From positions 1 to 51,928 of IMG/VR virus record IMGVR_UViG_3300031857_018470: a stretch of DNA of 51,928 bases, one strand, 5' to 3'. The translations under genes and the position numbers were made by a program. The notes below the pieces were generated by a model. That model was not told where the DNA came from. It did no database searches and saw only the letters and a list, made by a program, of their open reading frames with translations. Source of the stretch: a virus. Of the stretch, positions 878 through 16,129 are shown piece after piece; position 1 is the stretch's first letter; every line of letters begins with the position of its first letter.

Positions 878-1735
878 TTATTTAATTATGCCGGCTAATT
901 TTTGCATACGAATGAATGATTCATTCATTGATTCTTTAGTAGCTAATTTAGTAGCGGTAGCATACATTTTGGCTTTTTCTTCTTTAGACTTACCAAAGCT
1001 TTTAGATTTTTTCATAGATTTAACTATGTCTTCTTTCTTTTCTTTTTCAGCAGCTGTCATTTTTTTCTTTTTAATCTCAAATATAGCTTCTCCTTTTTTA
1101 AATCCAGGAATATATATTTTTAATACATCTTTCATTACTTCAGAAGTAAATTCTTCATCATTATTTTCTTCTTCAAAAGAAATAAAATTACTAGCTAACT
1201 CATCAGTACTAGCTTCACTATAATCCATACCGCTATTTGAAGTTTTAGCCATAAATTCTAAAAATTCTTTTTCTTGACCTGGGATAAGTTTACTGAGTGC
1301 TTTTAGCAGCATCTGCACTTTTGGATCAGAAGAAGCTTCTTCATATAGTGTACTTTCTTCTAACTCAGGCCCAGATGTTGGGTCAGCTGTGTATTCATCA
1401 ATTATTTCTTCATCTACATTATTATCTTTCATTTCTTCCATCTTAGGAGTATCTTTTTTATCCATTTTTTCAAGTAATTTTTTATACTTGGCCATGGATT
1501 TTTCAAGAAGTTTAATTTCAGATGTCATCTCTTTCATCTTACCTTTATCCATCATATCATGATAAGCTTCATCTAAACCTTCCATATTGAGTTTCTTCTT
1601 ACGAAGGTCAATAGCTTCTTGAGTTTTAGTCATTTTAGCTTCTAAAGCAGCTCTGTTGCCTGCTTCATCAATTTCACGGATATATTCTTGTATGGATTCT
1701 CTAATAAGTTGTCTAAGTTGGGTTATTTGATTCAT
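878..1735 (-). CDS. Charged coiled-coil protein with LIRE-type N-terminal tag (scaffold or internal protein?)
   Basis: 285 residues, very rich in Lys and Glu, with predicted helices and a coiled coil over about residues 30-110. The N-terminus QLRQLIRESIQEYIREID is an amphipathic helix of the type seen on many proteins in 4.8-13.9 kb. The C-terminus ends in MQKLAGIIK, echoing the MQKLAFGKI start of the protein at 8530-9045. Composition resembles phage scaffold or internal head proteins, but no family is recognised. A TATTTATAA motif lies about 20 bases upstream, and the terminator at 797-821 follows. Confidence 0.6.
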   Translation of the reverse strand: MNQITQLRQLIRESIQEYIREIDEAGNRAALEAKMTKTQEAIDLRKKKLNMEGLDEAYHDMMDKGKMKEMTSEIKLLEKSMAKYKKLLEKMDKKDTPKMEEMKDNNVDEEIIDEYTADPTSGPELEESTLYEEASSDPKVQMLLKALSKLIPGQEKEFLEFMAKTSNSGMDYSEASTDELASNFISFEEENNDEEFTSEVMKDVLKIYIPGFKKGEAIFEIKKKKMTAAEKEKKEDIVKSMKKSKSFGKSKEEKAKMYATATKLATKESMNESFIRMQKLAGIIK

Positions 1736-2037: not shown

Positions 2038-2302
2038 CTTCTTTAGGTAAAAACCAATTTGAACACCACTTGCTAGGATCTTTTATTTGATTACCTTCAT
2101 CATCTACTAATTCAGCAGTGCCTTTATAGTCTTGGTATTGTTTGTTAGAACACATATGTTTTTCATCTTCAACATAATAATACTTACAAACATGACATCC
2201 AAAACCTATTGGAGAAAACATGTAAGGAGGATATTCTTCTCCTTTATGTTCTTTTAATCTATTTTTAGATACCCAATCTGTTACATTAAAATCTTTTTTC
2301 AT
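2024..2302 (-). CDS. Small Cys-cluster protein (zinc or iron-sulfur)
   Basis: 92 residues from the MKKDF start. A longer reading would add MVI inside the previous gene, but the TAATG junction with the M15 peptidase gene favours this start. Four Cys are arranged as C-x2-C (GCHVCKYYY), then HMCSNKQY and KWCSNW. That spacing suits a metal- or cluster-binding fold such as a HiPIP-like or zinc domain. No family is confirmed. It sits between the lysis genes and the cupin gene. Confidence 0.55.
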   Translation of the reverse strand: MKKDFNVTDWVSKNRLKEHKGEEYPPYMFSPIGFGCHVCKYYYVEDEKHMCSNKQYQDYKGTAELVDDEGNQIKDPSKWCSNWFLPKEDEAV

Positions 2303-2775
2303 TATGACCAAGGTTTATAAGTTGTTTTACCATTTACTCTAACTGCTTTAAGAATTTGCTTTCTTTGACGTCCAGTAGATTCATAGGAAACATGAACCCA
2401 ATCAGGATTATTATCATCACCAAATTCCCAAATCAATTGATCAAAATTAAGATTATTCTTAATATAATCAAATACCATTTTATTTGTTATTCCAGTAGTC
2501 ATACTATCTTGATCCAAATCTAATGCTTCACCACTACAGTGTTGAGATGTGGCTGAAGAACCTGGGGTAGCATCATTTAAAGCTTTAGAGCGATATCCTG
2601 AAGATACGTTAATTGGCTTTTGAAAATGCTCTCGTATTGGTTGAAATATATTTTGTGCTACTAGTTTTAAGTTAGCAAGGTGTTCTGCTGTAGGTATGTT
2701 ATCTATACCAAGTCTTTTAGCAGTACTAGATTTAGTAACTTCTACTAATGTTAAGTTCGCTGATAATTGTGTCAT
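2302..2775 (-). CDS. Peptidase M15-family endolysin (peptidoglycan peptidase)
   Basis: 157 residues. The M15 zinc-peptidase pattern is clear: VSSGYRSKALN (58-68), the zinc pair H79-x6-D86 in SQHCSGEALDLD, and the downstream WVHVS with zinc ligand H128. Such enzymes cut the peptide stems or cross-bridges of peptidoglycan. There is no signal peptide, so release through a holin is expected; a holin-like gene lies directly upstream with a TAATG junction. This is the likely endolysin of the lysis cassette at 2302-4786. Confidence 0.85.
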   Translation of the reverse strand: MTQLSANLTLVEVTKSSTAKRLGIDNIPTAEHLANLKLVAQNIFQPIREHFQKPINVSSGYRSKALNDATPGSSATSQHCSGEALDLDQDSMTTGITNKMVFDYIKNNLNFDQLIWEFGDDNNPDWVHVSYESTGRQRKQILKAVRVNGKTTYKPWS

Positions 2776-4805: not shown

Positions 4806-5177
4806 TTATTTGGTCTTACCCCATTTTTTACCTTTCCCTGGTTGCTTACATTGAGAAGGAGTTGGACGACATGACGGGTATTTAGAGCGTTTTTCACCCT
4901 CTTTTCTACCACATGCTTTGCATTTTCCGTCTCGACAAGTATTACAATCAACCCAACCACCTTCTTTACCAGGTGTACCTGAGCGTTTAAACCATTTATG
5001 AAGTGATTCGTCTTCTTTTATACCTTTCCAAATTTTACCTTGACGGCATCTAACTACAGCACCAGATTTATAAGCTGATGGTTTATCAAACTTACGGTCA
5101 GCTATACGTAAACATCTATCCCGTTTAGCTTTTTCTTCTAAAAGAAGTTGTTTAAGTATGTCTATAAGCTTAGTCAT
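4806..5177 (-). CDS. Basic Cys-rich phage protein with N-terminal tag
   Basis: 123 residues. The N-terminus LIDILKQLLLEEKAKRD resembles the shared amphipathic tag. The rest is basic with at least seven Cys: KSGAVVRCRQGKIWKG, then WVDCNTCRDGKCKACGRK and YPSCRPTPSQCKQ. I recall similar segments in other T4-like phages (DUF5872-like), unverified. A metal-binding, DNA- or capsid-associated role is possible. It is translationally coupled to the gene at 5177-5551 (shared base TAATG). Confidence 0.6.
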   Translation of the reverse strand: MTKLIDILKQLLLEEKAKRDRCLRIADRKFDKPSAYKSGAVVRCRQGKIWKGIKEDESLHKWFKRSGTPGKEGGWVDCNTCRDGKCKACGRKEGEKRSKYPSCRPTPSQCKQPGKGKKWGKTK

Positions 5178-9649: not shown

Positions 9650-10283
9650 TCTTTAATATTTTATTTAATTTTTCTCTTAATATACTATGCTCTTCTAATG
9701 ATTTTTGTCTTTCTAAATTATAATCTTTAGTTGGAGATAACTTAGCATTATTTAATATTTTAATAAGAATTGATTGATCTTTAGGTTCAAACTTTAAAGT
9801 TTTATCATCAACTTTAGTTGGATTTAAACTAGACTTAACTGCTTTTTCACCACTTGTTATAGCATAATATTTTTTAACTAAATCTAAATTATACCTAGAT
9901 CTTTCTGGGAAGAAAAATTCGATGGTGCCTGCGGCATCTTTTTTAGAGGCAGGTGTACCTTTAGCAAATCCACCAACTTCTTGAGCAATTTTTCTATATA
10001 ATTCTTTACCATTTTGTTTATATATTTCTCTGTTGGTTTGATAATTAGACCTACGATTTGGTTGATCTCCAAAAACACGTTTTTCAAGATCAGCTAACCC
10101 ACCAGATTTAGATACAAATGTACCACCTAAATTAGCAGGGTCATTTATAATATCTAATAATTGATCAGCGTTATATTTGTCTGATGTGAGGAGTAATTCA
10201 GTTTTGGCTTTTAATTTTTTTAAGCCACTTTCCTCTTCACCACCCTCTTCTTGTTCTCTTAATCTATATTTAAAGTTACTCAT
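9639..10283 (-). CDS. Tagged hypothetical protein
   Basis: 214 residues from ATG at 10283; the longer reading starts inside the HAD gene and is rejected because of the ATGA overlap here. The start MSNFKYRLREQEEGGEEE resembles the shared tag. The body is basic with no recognised motif, and the end is a Lys/Leu-rich helix (SILREKLNKILKNVR). The function is unknown. Confidence 0.6.
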   Translation of the reverse strand: MSNFKYRLREQEEGGEEESGLKKLKAKTELLLTSDKYNADQLLDIINDPANLGGTFVSKSGGLADLEKRVFGDQPNRRSNYQTNREIYKQNGKELYRKIAQEVGGFAKGTPASKKDAAGTIEFFFPERSRYNLDLVKKYYAITSGEKAVKSSLNPTKVDDKTLKFEPKDQSILIKILNNAKLSPTKDYNLERQKSLEEHSILREKLNKILKNVR

Positions 10284-10813
10284 AGTCCTAATGCTTTTAA
10301 GTCGTTTATAGTTTGTGATGTTGAAGTAAATAAAATACCTATACCTCCGGCGGCATTCCACTCATTAATAGTATCTTCACGGTCGTCAATAAGTATTTTA
10401 TTTTTACCGGAATAATCCTTTTTATTGCTCCTTTTTGCTAAAACTAATTTAGTTCCAGGTAAATTTTCCTGAGCCCATAATTTTTTACCATAACGAGATG
10501 AATAATCTTGTGAGGGTGCTGAAAGTAGTATTGGTTTATATTTTTGAATATAACTCCATAATGCTTTACCTTCTGGCATCCAAGGTATTTTTGCCCAAAA
10601 TTGAGCTCCTACTTGTGTAATAAGGTCCCAAAATTTATTAGTACCATATTTAGTCTCATAAGCTTTAGGGCTCATACCTCCAAATTCTTGAAATCGCTTA
10701 TCAAAGTCAGCTATTACACCATCCATATCACAATAAAGTGTATATTGTGAAGCGACAGCGGATTGCTCTTCCTCTTTTAATTGTTTATATATATCTGTTA
10801 ATTTATAACGCAT
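10280..10813 (-). CDS. HAD-superfamily phosphatase (5'-nucleotidase-like) with N-terminal tag
   Basis: 177 residues. After a tag-like start (KLTDIYKQLKEEE) comes HAD motif I YCDMDGV (D29, D31). Motif II is at LLSAP (S98), Lys is supplied by the AKRSNKKD segment, and motif IV is LIDDRED (D143, D144). This layout is closest to the small deoxyribonucleotidase (NT5C-like) group, which removes 5' phosphates from nucleotides. It may help redirect nucleotides for phage DNA. It overlaps 9639-10283 by four bases and 10803-12986 by 11. Confidence 0.75.
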   Translation of the reverse strand: MRYKLTDIYKQLKEEEQSAVASQYTLYCDMDGVIADFDKRFQEFGGMSPKAYETKYGTNKFWDLITQVGAQFWAKIPWMPEGKALWSYIQKYKPILLSAPSQDYSSRYGKKLWAQENLPGTKLVLAKRSNKKDYSGKNKILIDDREDTINEWNAAGGIGILFTSTSQTINDLKALGL

Positions 10814-12986
10814 TCTTAATTGAATCCTCCCAATTTCTAAAAATTATATTACCATTCAAATAAGCCTCTTTTTCCAACTCTAATAAATCACCATCCTCAT
10901 TAGTGTTAGTAGTATTAACATTTCCTAATCTACCCTCATTATCTTGAATACGATGAATCATTTCATGAGAGTAAGAACGTAATACATCTTTAGGGTGTCT
11001 ATTTAATGTATATAAGGTAATTGAACAATTAGTTGGATCATAATAAGCAGTTCTACCTAATATGTTTTCAGCGTTTTTAGAATCGTTATCTATAATTCTT
11101 AACTTAGGTAATGGTTTAATATTTAAACCCTGGTTAAGCATATACCTGGTTAATGAAACTAAAGCACTTTTAAAATCAGTAAGTTGTGAATGCATACACC
11201 CACAATCTTCATTAAGTTCAATTTTAGGGTCAGCAGTATAAAAATCCTTTTTACGCATTATAGTTTTAGCTATAATTTTATCAGTTAAATTAACTAATGG
11301 AATATTAATATTAGTTCTATTATCTGTTGCTACTACTTCTTTATATTTTGTAAGAAAATCTTCTAATTGATCTTTTTTACGAGCTAAACGCTTAAAAAAT
11401 CCAATAAGTTCAGCTGTTGATATAGGTTTAATATTTCTTGGGTCATTTAATCTGTCAAAAAAGTGATTAGAGAAATCAATATCTAATGGAGCTAATTCTC
11501 TATCAGCATAGTCTTCAACAGATTGTAATGATGATTGAGACATTTCATCAACAGTTGTTGAAAGAACTTGCTTATACTTTTCAGATGATATTCCGTCTGG
11601 GAGGAATGGAGTTATATCTTCATTATTTTTTAGTGCTTTTCTTAAATCAGTAGCGCTTAAATTTCCAGCAGCCTCATTATAGTTTTTAATAGTTACATTT
11701 TGAGGAACTCCCCCAAATCTTCCAAAATCTTCTTCTTTACCAAATACTGCTATATATTGTTGATTAGGATTATTTCTAAATAATTCATAAGCTGCGGCTA
11801 CAGGGCTTTGTGAAGGTACAGGTAAAGATGAATCATTTGATAATAATACCTTAACATTTGAGGGAAGTTTAACTAATTTAAAAATATTTAAACTATCTTC
11901 AGCACTTATAGGCATTTGATCTATAAGTTTTTCTCTATCTTTTTTAGTAGTACCACTAGGTTCAGTTTTTGGTGATACTAAAACAATTACTTCATCAGCA
12001 TCGGCTGCGGCTGCTTTAATCCTAGCTATGTGATCTTTATGAGGTGGTTTAAATTTACCTGGGAAGACAGCTATTGTTTTAGCAGACTCATCTTCTAAAA
12101 GAAATGGTTTTATTAATTCCATCACTAAAGAATTATGTTTTTCTTCTAAAGATGCTACTGTGTCTATAGCTTGTTGTTTTTTATCACCTTTTTCAGTACC
12201 TACTTCGGCATCTCCTATTCGTATGTTTTTCTTAAACATTCCTTTAAGACGATCTATTGATCTTCTATTTTTAAATTTCTTAACTTTAGATATGATAGTA
12301 TCGAATTTATCATTTTCAATATCAACACCTAAATATTTGATTATGGTTTTAATATCATCAAAACTATTTGATTTCCATATTTCTCTACCTTCATTTTTTC
12401 CTACAGGAACAATTCTTAAAGATAATGATGATGGATTTAAATTAAAATCATATTCTTCTCCTTCGCCCGGTTTTTCAATATTACTTATACTTAATTCTTT
12501 AAATAAATTTTCTATTTCTTTTTCGTTTAATTCTGTGAAAACAGCTTTAGTTAAACCTATAGCTAATACTTGTTCTTGAGCAGGTAAATCTAACATTTTA
12601 TATGTAAATTTACCTTCTTCTTTAGATACAGTTACAATATTATCTATTTGAACATATTCTCCTTCTTTACCTGCTATAGGATATAAAGTAGAAACTATAT
12701 TTCCATGTATAAAATATTTTTTATTCTTTTTAGGAATAACGGGTATTTGAGAAATTTGTTCTAAAGAACTGGCTAATTTTTGTTTAAGATCTTTTTTATC
12801 ACCTTCGGGAAATGAAACTACAATATCAATATCTCCAAAAATGTTTTTTTCGGGTCTAGAACGAACACCTGTAATACTATATGATGTATCTAATCCTAAT
12901 GGTTTTAGGACATTATCTCTATAGTCACGAATTGTGGCTTTTAAATTTTCTTTATTTATGCGTGATCCGCCGGCTGCTCCGCTCAT
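10803..12986 (-). CDS. Fusion: Pol-beta nucleotidyltransferase, NMN-adenylyltransferase-like domain, HEXXH zinc peptidase
   Basis: 727 residues in three units. First, about 30-130: a nucleotidyltransferase core with F-GDIDIVV (D52, D54). Second, about 303-470: a cytidylyltransferase/NMNAT-like Rossmann domain with FPGKFKPPHKDH (308-319) and LSATDLR (443-449), the H-x-x-H-like and ATP-binding motifs. Third, about 590-727: a zincin with HEMIH (674-678) and a likely third ligand in LELEKEAY (E706). Just before the second unit is MELIKPFLLEDE (289-300), which looks like the N-terminal tag of neighbouring proteins, now internal. Substrates are unknown. Confidence 0.7.
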   Translation of the reverse strand: MSGAAGGSRINKENLKATIRDYRDNVLKPLGLDTSYSITGVRSRPEKNIFGDIDIVVSFPEGDKKDLKQKLASSLEQISQIPVIPKKNKKYFIHGNIVSTLYPIAGKEGEYVQIDNIVTVSKEEGKFTYKMLDLPAQEQVLAIGLTKAVFTELNEKEIENLFKELSISNIEKPGEGEEYDFNLNPSSLSLRIVPVGKNEGREIWKSNSFDDIKTIIKYLGVDIENDKFDTIISKVKKFKNRRSIDRLKGMFKKNIRIGDAEVGTEKGDKKQQAIDTVASLEEKHNSLVMELIKPFLLEDESAKTIAVFPGKFKPPHKDHIARIKAAAADADEVIVLVSPKTEPSGTTKKDREKLIDQMPISAEDSLNIFKLVKLPSNVKVLLSNDSSLPVPSQSPVAAAYELFRNNPNQQYIAVFGKEEDFGRFGGVPQNVTIKNYNEAAGNLSATDLRKALKNNEDITPFLPDGISSEKYKQVLSTTVDEMSQSSLQSVEDYADRELAPLDIDFSNHFFDRLNDPRNIKPISTAELIGFFKRLARKKDQLEDFLTKYKEVVATDNRTNINIPLVNLTDKIIAKTIMRKKDFYTADPKIELNEDCGCMHSQLTDFKSALVSLTRYMLNQGLNIKPLPKLRIIDNDSKNAENILGRTAYYDPTNCSITLYTLNRHPKDVLRSYSHEMIHRIQDNEGRLGNVNTTNTNEDGDLLELEKEAYLNGNIIFRNWEDSIKNAL

Positions 12987-12987
12987 A

Positions 12988-13902
12988 TTAGATATTATCT
13001 GGTATGTATGCTCCTGCTCTCCTTAGAGCTTCTTTAAACATAGTTAATGTTTTTTCTTGGTCTTCAGGTTTAAGATTAGTTTTAATATAATTCACTAATT
13101 TATTATAGTTATTAATTATATCTAAAGTTAGTGGTTGTTTAGGTTTATATTCTTGATTTAATACTTCTAATGCTTCTTTAGGTTTATCAGCAATTGTTTC
13201 TCCAGTATTTTTACGTATAAATCCTCTACCGCTTTTAAAAGTATAACCTAAAGCAGCAAACATAGCTAACATTAATTGTCCTCTATGTAAACCTTTAATT
13301 TGGGGATTATCTTCAGGTAATTCAGAATTAAACCTAAATTTTAACCAATCCATATCACCAATATCTATATCTAATTGAGCTCTAGATTCTAATTTTTTAC
13401 CAGCGGTGTCATATTGAGGATACGAAAAATGAATTGATCCTGCGCCAGAAGCTTTGTCACTAGTGTGTAGATCTGTGGAACTTGAATTTATTTTATTAAC
13501 AATTAATTGAATTAATGATTTTAATTGAATTTGATCGTCTGCTGCTGAGCGCGCTGCTTTTTTATTTTTAGCATATAAAATATCATATTCATCTTGACTA
13601 ATACCCCAACCTTCAGTATCAGCTTGTCCGTTTTTAAAGAAATATTCAGCTGAGTAAGCTACATCTACATCACCGGATTGAGGTTTATTGCCTGTTGAGC
13701 CTAACCAATTACTTTTATCATTTAATGAATTAAATGTAGATTTTTTATTTGGAAAAATTTTACCTAAATCATCCACAAATTTTTTAATTGTTGGAGTTAT
13801 ATTAGCTAATAATATGTTTTCAGTATCGTATTCAGTGTTTTTAAATACATTACCTCCTTCATTAACAAATACTTCTCTTAAGAGTTTTACTAAAGAAATC
13901 AT
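12988..13902 (-). CDS. Pol-beta-superfamily nucleotidyltransferase with N-terminal tag
   Basis: 304 residues. The tag-like start is MISLVKLLREVFVNEGGN. The nucleotidyltransferase signature is GST (68-70) followed by GDVDVA (D78, D80), with a third acid in the RAQLDIDIGD segment (D178/D180). Such enzymes transfer NMPs to RNA, protein or small molecules; the target cannot be read from the sequence. It is the second nucleotidyltransferase in a row, one base from the three-domain fusion gene. TATTTATGA lies 12 bases upstream. Confidence 0.7.
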   Translation of the reverse strand: MISLVKLLREVFVNEGGNVFKNTEYDTENILLANITPTIKKFVDDLGKIFPNKKSTFNSLNDKSNWLGSTGNKPQSGDVDVAYSAEYFFKNGQADTEGWGISQDEYDILYAKNKKAARSAADDQIQLKSLIQLIVNKINSSSTDLHTSDKASGAGSIHFSYPQYDTAGKKLESRAQLDIDIGDMDWLKFRFNSELPEDNPQIKGLHRGQLMLAMFAALGYTFKSGRGFIRKNTGETIADKPKEALEVLNQEYKPKQPLTLDIINNYNKLVNYIKTNLKPEDQEKTLTMFKEALRRAGAYIPDNI

Positions 13903-15685: not shown

Positions 15686-16129
15686 CTAGCCTACAAAATC
15701 CTTAGTGAAGAATTTACCTAATATATTATCGTTAAAATAATTATCGGGTTTTTCTAATACATCAAATGTGAATAACATTTTACATTCGAGGTATGTTAAT
15801 TGTTTTTTATTGAAAGCTAATACTAGTATTTCACGTTCAAATTCGTCTTGTTTACCTGCTTTAATTAAATCAAGAATAGGTTTAGCGGAACCATAATATG
15901 TTTTCCAATCTGATTCTTTTTGGACTACTCTAGTAGATGATTTACGACCTGGTCCTGATTGCTCAGCTAACTCTTTTTTAGTAAGTTTTTTCTTTATATT
16001 GTGATATAAAGATTTTTTACCTATATATGATTTACCTGATGGTTTATGATTTACTATGTAAATAAAACCAAATGTATTTTTAGGAAAATCTTCTATACTG
16101 TTTATAACTTGATTTTGGTATAACCACAT
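15686..16129 (-). CDS. GIY-YIG nuclease-like protein
   Basis: 147 residues. GFIYIVN (21-27) and SYIGKK (34-39) form the GIY-x10-YIG signature. LTKKELAEQSGPGRKS and ESDWKTYYGSAKP follow, a set I recall in a phage GIY-YIG family. Catalytic Arg and Glu candidates are in the second half (EFEREILVLAFNK). It may be a homing-type or repair nuclease. It lies between the primase and the fibre genes, one base from 16130-17716. Confidence 0.65.
   Translation of the reverse strand: MWLYQNQVINSIEDFPKNTFGFIYIVNHKPSGKSYIGKKSLYHNIKKKLTKKELAEQSGPGRKSSTRVVQKESDWKTYYGSAKPILDLIKAGKQDEFEREILVLAFNKKQLTYLECKMLFTFDVLEKPDNYFNDNILGKFFTKDFVG

Follow-up and report, generated by a model that had tools for sequence, protein, structure and literature searches.

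The gene at positions 10803 to 12986 of the window, a 51,928-base virus record, encodes a fusion protein that is probably a modular cargo polyprotein of the phage head interior, with its internal tag serving as a prohead-protease site. The source is a T4-like myovirus of Bacteroidota. The nearest annotated relatives of the record are the Flavobacterium phage immuto group, and the immuto homologue of the fusion protein is 33% identical over the full length; immuto grows on Flavobacterium sp. LMO8. A genome-collection scan gave only eight loci; the MAGs that contain them bear labels such as Flavobacteriales and Winogradskyella, which are a host hint only.

The open frame starts with ATG and runs without interruption for 727 amino acids on the minus strand (12986 to 10803). 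The initial annotation had listed it without a strand; a plus-strand reading of the same interval contains 74 stops and was discarded. The motifs quoted there all lie at exactly the residues given for them: GDIDIVV at 51-57, MELIKPFLLEDE at 289-300, FPGKFKPPHKDH at 308-319, LSATDLR at 443-449 and HEMIH at 674-678. They go beyond chance, as the key residues are kept in relatives and the AlphaFold folds match. The protein had been described as having three domains, a reading that is ruled out by a fourth, RelE/RegB-like domain at about residues 482-592 that had been overlooked. The frame contains the following features.

10803..12986, minus strand: 727-aa fusion frame composed of nucleotidyltransferase, internal leader, HIGH/NMNAT-like, RelE/RegB-like and zincin parts (open frame, AlphaFold model, immuto homologue)
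12141..12986, minus strand: Pol-beta superfamily nucleotidyltransferase domain, residues 1-282, with D52, D54 and D115 (Foldseek, weak Pfam matches in relatives, conserved acids)
12093..12137, minus strand: internal leader HNSLVMELIKPFLLE, residues 284-298, capsid-targeting-like, with a predicted prohead-protease cut after E298 (stand-alone gene starts in relatives, conservation)
11553..12083, minus strand: HIGH-superfamily nucleotidyltransferase domain (NMNAT/NadD/PPAT-like), residues 302-478, with HKDH and LSATDLR (PHROG profiles, fold, profile-profile match)
11211..11543, minus strand: RelE/ParE/RegB-like (BECR-type) domain, residues 482-592 (phrog_23027, phrog_14518, weak REGB_T4, RegB alignment, VIA)
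10806..11177, minus strand: zincin, residues 604-727, with HEXXH at 674-678 and downstream Glu 705/707 (fold, conserved residues)

The AlphaFold model, built with an input of 30 sequences, had a mean pLDDT of 81 and a pTM of 0.36; the individual domains are well folded and their mutual placement is uncertain. A second model covered residues 481-727 alone. Residues 1-282 of the first model match DNA polymerases lambda and beta (Foldseek, prob 1.0) and thus have the Pol X fold, and the DxD acids D52 and D54, together with the third acid D115, are kept in 12/12 aligned relatives; two relatives, L051 and L078, give weak Pfam Polbeta/NTP_transf_2 matches for this domain. In the second model, residues 482-592 gave RelE/ParE-type structural matches with a VIA Z of up to 6.2, which falls under the Z of 8 that the tool takes as the level for a trustworthy common arrangement. 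Profile matches of the same segment are phrog_23027, phrog_14518 and, at a weak level, T4 RegB; an alignment to RegB has one catalytic-type His and one Arg in common, and the second RegB His is not kept. The C-terminal part resembles Wss1 (Z 8.1) and IrrE (Z 7.9). The zincin fold is accompanied by HEXXH and a downstream Glu ligand, and H674, E675, H678, E705 and E707 are kept in 29/30 aligned rows.

The tag starts five residues before MELIKPFLLEDE, so that the full leader is residues 284-298. It recurs at gene starts. Among 80 related viral loci, compared in a search whose seeds included the zincin, stand-alone genes in L032, L033, L035 and L039 start precisely with the tag, which as MNSLVKELIQPLLE opens genes with an NMNAT-like domain in L032, L035, L039 and L043. 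The tag also heads other cargoes: MLSLVKELIQPLLQE lies immediately upstream of a zincin in L046, L047, L049 and L050, MNQLVQELIKDLLEQ precedes a nucleotidase-like HAD domain in L059, and the tag lies before HAD in L079 too; related leaders precede still other modules. Because the leader heads unrelated cargoes in stand-alone genes, the tag is a feature of gene starts and is not tied to a single fold. Its start Met is replaced in the window (EKHNSLVMELIKPFLLE). The proposal that two genes had fused, leaving an N-terminal tag inside the product, is therefore borne out by the stand-alone gene starts and by the other cargoes in L046, L059 and L079.

Conservation of the leader is concentrated at a few positions. 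L287 and L291 are invariant (18/18) and E298 is present in 17/18 divergent sequences, with variable positions adjacent to E298 and the hydrophobic residues. The leader ends in LLE/DE (a slash marks the cut or presumed cut throughout), a prohead-protease-type L/I-x-E site. An L/I/F-x-E sequence is kept in 15/16 fused linkers, compared with 16% of 12-residue windows in the same proteins, a figure that overstates independence since the fused sequences are mutually related. In the immuto fusion the leader is eroded and the clear L/I-x-E site is lost, whereas closer relatives of the L005 and L008 type keep it. AlphaFold models the leader segment as a helix of low confidence, probably flexible, and residues 297-300, where confidence is low, look like an exposed linker in the model. 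The idea that the tag is an internal cleavage site is thus plausible, with the site itself observed and the cutting predicted from sequence.

The relatives show how variable the locus is. Its products range from 149 to 1762 aa, and it forms a modular hot spot in which several effector-type domains share one phage chain with a changing architecture, as in polyvalent proteins. The domains of the fusion also exist as separate genes in related phages, as the initial annotation had suggested looking for: in L051 the nucleotidyltransferase and the leader-NMNAT are two genes, separated by a further leader-bearing gene. Beyond the point where the NMNAT-like domain ends, the DNA of a fused locus (L012) and that of an unfused one (L039) are 97.7% identical, yet the two differ upstream. 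Fused and unfused alleles recombine, and the fused state is not fixed. The zincin stands alone behind a leader in L046, L047, L049, L050, L053 and L054, so it is, at least sometimes, itself a cargo.

Several other versions of the locus were seen. The largest is the 1762-aa chain of L014 (4840-10125), which consists of nucleotidyltransferase, leader, NMNAT-like domain, DUF5661, RelE/RegB-like domain, a second nucleotidyltransferase-like domain (phrog_36119) and zincin. An 1127-aa product of L078 (5470-8853) has a weak HYD1-type ADP-ribosyltransferase match (PF15633, E 6.5e-4) and a second HEXXH; T4 Alt is a packaged ADP-ribosyltransferase with a similar leader. In some phages a leader-bearing zeta-toxin-like kinase (L039 5201-6001, PF06414 E 9.5e-16; L032 5207-6007) replaces the 304-aa nucleotidyltransferase-like neighbour described below. 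In Melnitz-3 (L002 3901-15354) the NMNAT-like, deoxyribonucleotidase and RelE/RegB-like genes are separate and close together, and the NMNAT-like gene and several neighbours have T4-type MKxF leaders; the same cargoes here bear a different class of leader.

The surroundings of the gene contain further leaders and lead into head genes.

12988..13902, minus strand: 304-aa nucleotidyltransferase-like upstream neighbour with its own leader, MISLVKLLREVFVNE/GGNVF (homologue comparison)
13858..13902, minus strand: leader of the 304-aa neighbour, residues 1-15 (homologue comparison)
10280..10813, minus strand: 5'(3')-deoxyribonucleotidase downstream neighbour, extended at its N-terminus by about 21 aa past the family start (phrog_2643, E 3.8e-28, match from residue 22)
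4806..5177, minus strand: head-cluster ORF with a leader-like N-terminus, MTKLIDILKQLLLE/EKAK (N-terminal pattern)
878..1735, minus strand: ORF with a leader-like N-terminus (LRQLIRE/S) and a scaffold-type C-terminus, FIRMQKLAGIIK (N-terminal pattern, C-terminal motif)

All of about 20 distinct homologues of the 304-aa neighbour have E directly before GGNVF; the immuto homologue has no leader and starts MGGNVF. The neighbour gene is an independent case of an E-ending leader. The window and immuto have the same gene order, namely GIY-YIG, primase, exonuclease, 302-304-aa nucleotidyltransferase-like gene, fusion and deoxyribonucleotidase, and in immuto the block continues into terminase, portal, prohead protease, scaffold and MCP. 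A prohead protease was found in immuto and in 6/9 related records; the window, a fragment, stops short of the head genes. The signature of the leaders recurs in these phages at the protease N-terminus (LIE, which T4 gp21 also has) and at the MCP maturation site, where I/L-V-x-E lines up with FLTE/A of T4.

The leader pattern, which was fixed only after some leaders had been viewed, occurs at the N-termini of 41/142 head-cluster ORFs vs 46/395 elsewhere (p 4e-6); the enrichment is non-significant for the window alone (p 0.16) and for the record G001 alone (p 0.12). In one record the pattern gave a false positive, a terminase, which is a non-packaged protein. A matrix trained on the window's leader class and applied to immuto N-termini gave 1/30 in the head cluster vs 4/162 elsewhere, and this failed transfer means that the leader classes are linked by the loose pattern only.

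The motif FxRMQKLAGI (window 878-1735; L001 38496-39737; L116 5276-6283) forms the extreme C-terminus of scaffold-type proteins. It is also N-terminal in several unrelated proteins (MNKEFLKMQKLAGIITES and following residues) and almost never internal; leaders of this class perhaps copy the capsid-binding tail of the scaffold. A peptidase M15-type gene (window 2302-2775, PF08291 E 3.5e-14), possibly an endolysin, lies inside the leader-rich cluster. The label "NAD synthetase" given in immuto and in phrog_447 is misleading (window 15686-16129; L001 13706-14143): the window copy is a GIY-YIG SegE-type endonuclease (PF19835, E 1.5e-27), and it was rejected as a pathway partner of the NMNAT-like domain.

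The leaders were compared with those of T4. In T4, L/I-x-E is the sequence after which the prohead protease gp21 cleaves; in the ten-residue targeting sequence of IPIII residues 4 and 7 serve targeting and residues 8 and 10 processing (PMC9026906). A general form, phi-x-x-phi-phi-x-E, fits IPII and IPIII (YQEFIAE/A), gp24 (INELLRE/S), the gp23 site (FGSFLTE/A), gp67 and gp68, and the leaders of the window's family fit it as well. Furthermore, the start of T4 Alt, MELITELFDEDT, resembles MELIKPFLLEDE of the window. The internal leader has both the L/I-x-E site and the hydrophobic positions (IPIII residues 4, 7 and 8) of T4-type capsid targeting; its place at residues 284-298 is not N-terminal, as that of the stand-alone relatives is. 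We know of no precedent for an internal targeting sequence. From its sequence, the leader is derived from a T4-type capsid-targeting sequence and may function likewise, as a non-canonical member.

The HIGH domain is related to a cyanophage cytidyltransferase/NMNAT-like family (profile-profile E 2.2e-8), members of which have been found in virions: T4-GC190 in S-SM1 (PMC3037559), the NMNAT-like protein of S-SCSM1 by mass spectrometry (PMC9602691) and further cases cited in PMC10665884. T4-like targeting N-termini are present in 6/8 aligned members of the family, for example MKSFLQFLKE/A in S-SCSM1 and MKKFSAFLTE/A in Syn33; the exceptions are Melnitz, which starts MKKFSEIIEA, and P-HM1, which has no targeting sequence. 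Among the S-SCSM1 virion proteins examined, the NMNAT-like protein is the sole fit to the leader pattern. These data support packaging of the family, not of the window protein. Our literature search, which covered mainly openly available papers, turned up no virion proteome for phages of the immuto type and, among the papers listed, none that combined cyanophage with capsid targeting.

We infer from these observations how the window protein would be packaged, cleaved and injected and how its domains would act. A T4 CTS-type leader would originally have been N-terminal on an NMNAT-like/zincin gene and would have become internal through fusion of that gene with the nucleotidyltransferase gene upstream. 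The leader would bring the whole chain into the prohead core, where a gp21-type prohead protease would cut after E298 (FLLE/DES), giving products of about 33.6 kDa (nucleotidyltransferase and leader) and 48.4 kDa (NMNAT-like, RelE/RegB-like and zincin). These products would stay with the DNA and pass into the next host cell, where the injected enzymes could work on nucleotides, RNA or proteins of the host ahead of phage gene expression. The most economical reading is that the T4 targeting system has been joined to the polyvalent-protein architecture (PMC5512222), yielding head-delivered enzymes processed by the prohead protease.

It is also conceivable, but in our judgement unlikely, that the internal leader is a mere vestige or a structural linker helix and that the fusion, whether packaged or not, works as one multidomain enzyme that stays uncleaved. 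The targeting sequences of T4 function N-terminally (PMC9026906), immuto retains the fusion in spite of its eroded site, and the segment is modelled as a helix; the retention of E298 and the hydrophobic positions amid variable neighbours, and the exposed linker suggested at 297-300, argue against this explanation. Cleavage might instead be the work of the zincin, acting as an autopeptidase that releases the other domains. Such autoprocessing has been proposed for the metallopeptidases of polyvalent proteins (PMC5512222), and the zincin is the C-terminal or a near-terminal module in nearly all architectures found, a ubiquity that is biased by the use of the zincin as a search seed. Where it stands alone behind a leader, in the six loci named above, it has nothing to release; we regard this role as quite unlikely and think it more probable that the prohead protease makes the cut at the tag. 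A second product could also arise from the same mRNA by an internal translation start at M289, for which the window and most of its clade have an ATG. The codon is not conserved, being ATA in L011 and L012 and AGA or AAA in the other fused clade, and no obvious ribosome-binding site precedes it, which makes this start very improbable, and we rejected it.

The initial annotation had seen in the middle domain an NMNAT that restores NAD+ in cells whose defences drain it. An NMNAT-like identity holds at the level of profiles and fold. The PHROG matches tie (phrog_3462, an NMNAT family, E 1.1e-7; phrog_395, E 1.5e-7), and the modelled fold of residues 302-478 is that of NaMN/NMN and phosphopantetheine adenylyltransferases (VIA Z 13.7, rmsd 2.8, 146 aligned). 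Enzymatic identity as NMNAT does not follow, as NadD and PPAT structures tie as best matches and Pfam CTP_transf_like matched the fusion protein below the family cut-off. A sequence search of the PDB gave weak PPAT matches only. H319 and R449 are kept in 25/25 aligned sequences, and the second HIGH-superfamily motif, of SxTxxR type, is present as LSATDLR. The first, (H/T)xGH, reads HKDH in the window with both His kept; its Gly is Asp in the window's clade, and in 8/25 aligned sequences overall, whereas the stand-alone homologue of L039 has HKGH. The cyanophage homologues are annotated as NMNAT and have been proposed to influence NAD levels (PMC9602691). However, every NadM phage surveyed in PMC9503650 also carried NadV, whereas no NAMPT/NadV match (PF04095) was found in nine related records, including the complete immuto genome, the window being a fragment; NadV was thus set aside as a partner. 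Because of the missing NadV-type gene in these records, the undecided substrate and the altered HxGH, NAD+ restoration is not favoured, and we give it little chance.

If the head-cargo reading is correct, the leader is a readable address label from which head-delivered proteins could be predicted in uncultured T4-like phages, and the repeated finding of NMNAT-like enzymes in cyanophage virions would be explained. Prohead proteases would then process cargo polyproteins, and the nucleotidyltransferases and the NMNAT-like, RelE/RegB-like, zincin, ADP-ribosyltransferase-like and zeta-toxin-like kinase proteins would be candidate enzymes of first-minute takeover or counter-defence. More broadly, it is quite possible, although we hold this only tentatively, that prohead proteases of Bacteroidota T4-like phages process cargo polyproteins, that a head-targeting leader which unrelated enzymes can exchange and which is able to work internally assembles, at a single fixed locus, an injected multi-enzyme payload that changes fast, and that the cyanophage virion NMNAT-like proteins are its separate-gene counterpart. 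T4 targeting sequences and polyvalent proteins are both already known, and the window gene is a variant that combines them.

Among the closest known systems, immuto gene 182 (annotated as NMN adenylyltransferase) is a full-length homologue in the same neighbourhood. Unlike the window gene, it has an extra C-terminal part, an eroded leader and no RelE/RegB-like domain, which in immuto is a separate leader-bearing gene, 190. The cyanophage NMNAT-like/cytidyltransferase proteins (T4-GC190, phrog_395) have a homologous HIGH domain and mostly a T4-type targeting N-terminus; those compared belong to a different leader class and are not fused to nucleotidyltransferase, RelE/RegB-like or zincin domains. 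The T4 capsid-targeting sequences of IPI-III, Alt and gp24, processed by gp21, are likewise short amphipathic leaders with an L/I-x-E end on unrelated cargoes, whereas in the window a nucleotidyltransferase of some 280 residues precedes the leader and makes it internal, the leader classes differ in sequence and packaging of the window protein is a prediction. Polyvalent proteins, which occur in phages and conjugative elements (PMC5512222), also mix Pol-beta nucleotidyltransferase, zincin, BECR RNase-type and ADP-ribosyltransferase domains in variable architectures. The window protein differs from them in its HIGH/NMNAT-like domain, which a term search of the text of PMC5512222 did not find, and in what would be a T4-like head route with a targeting-type leader.
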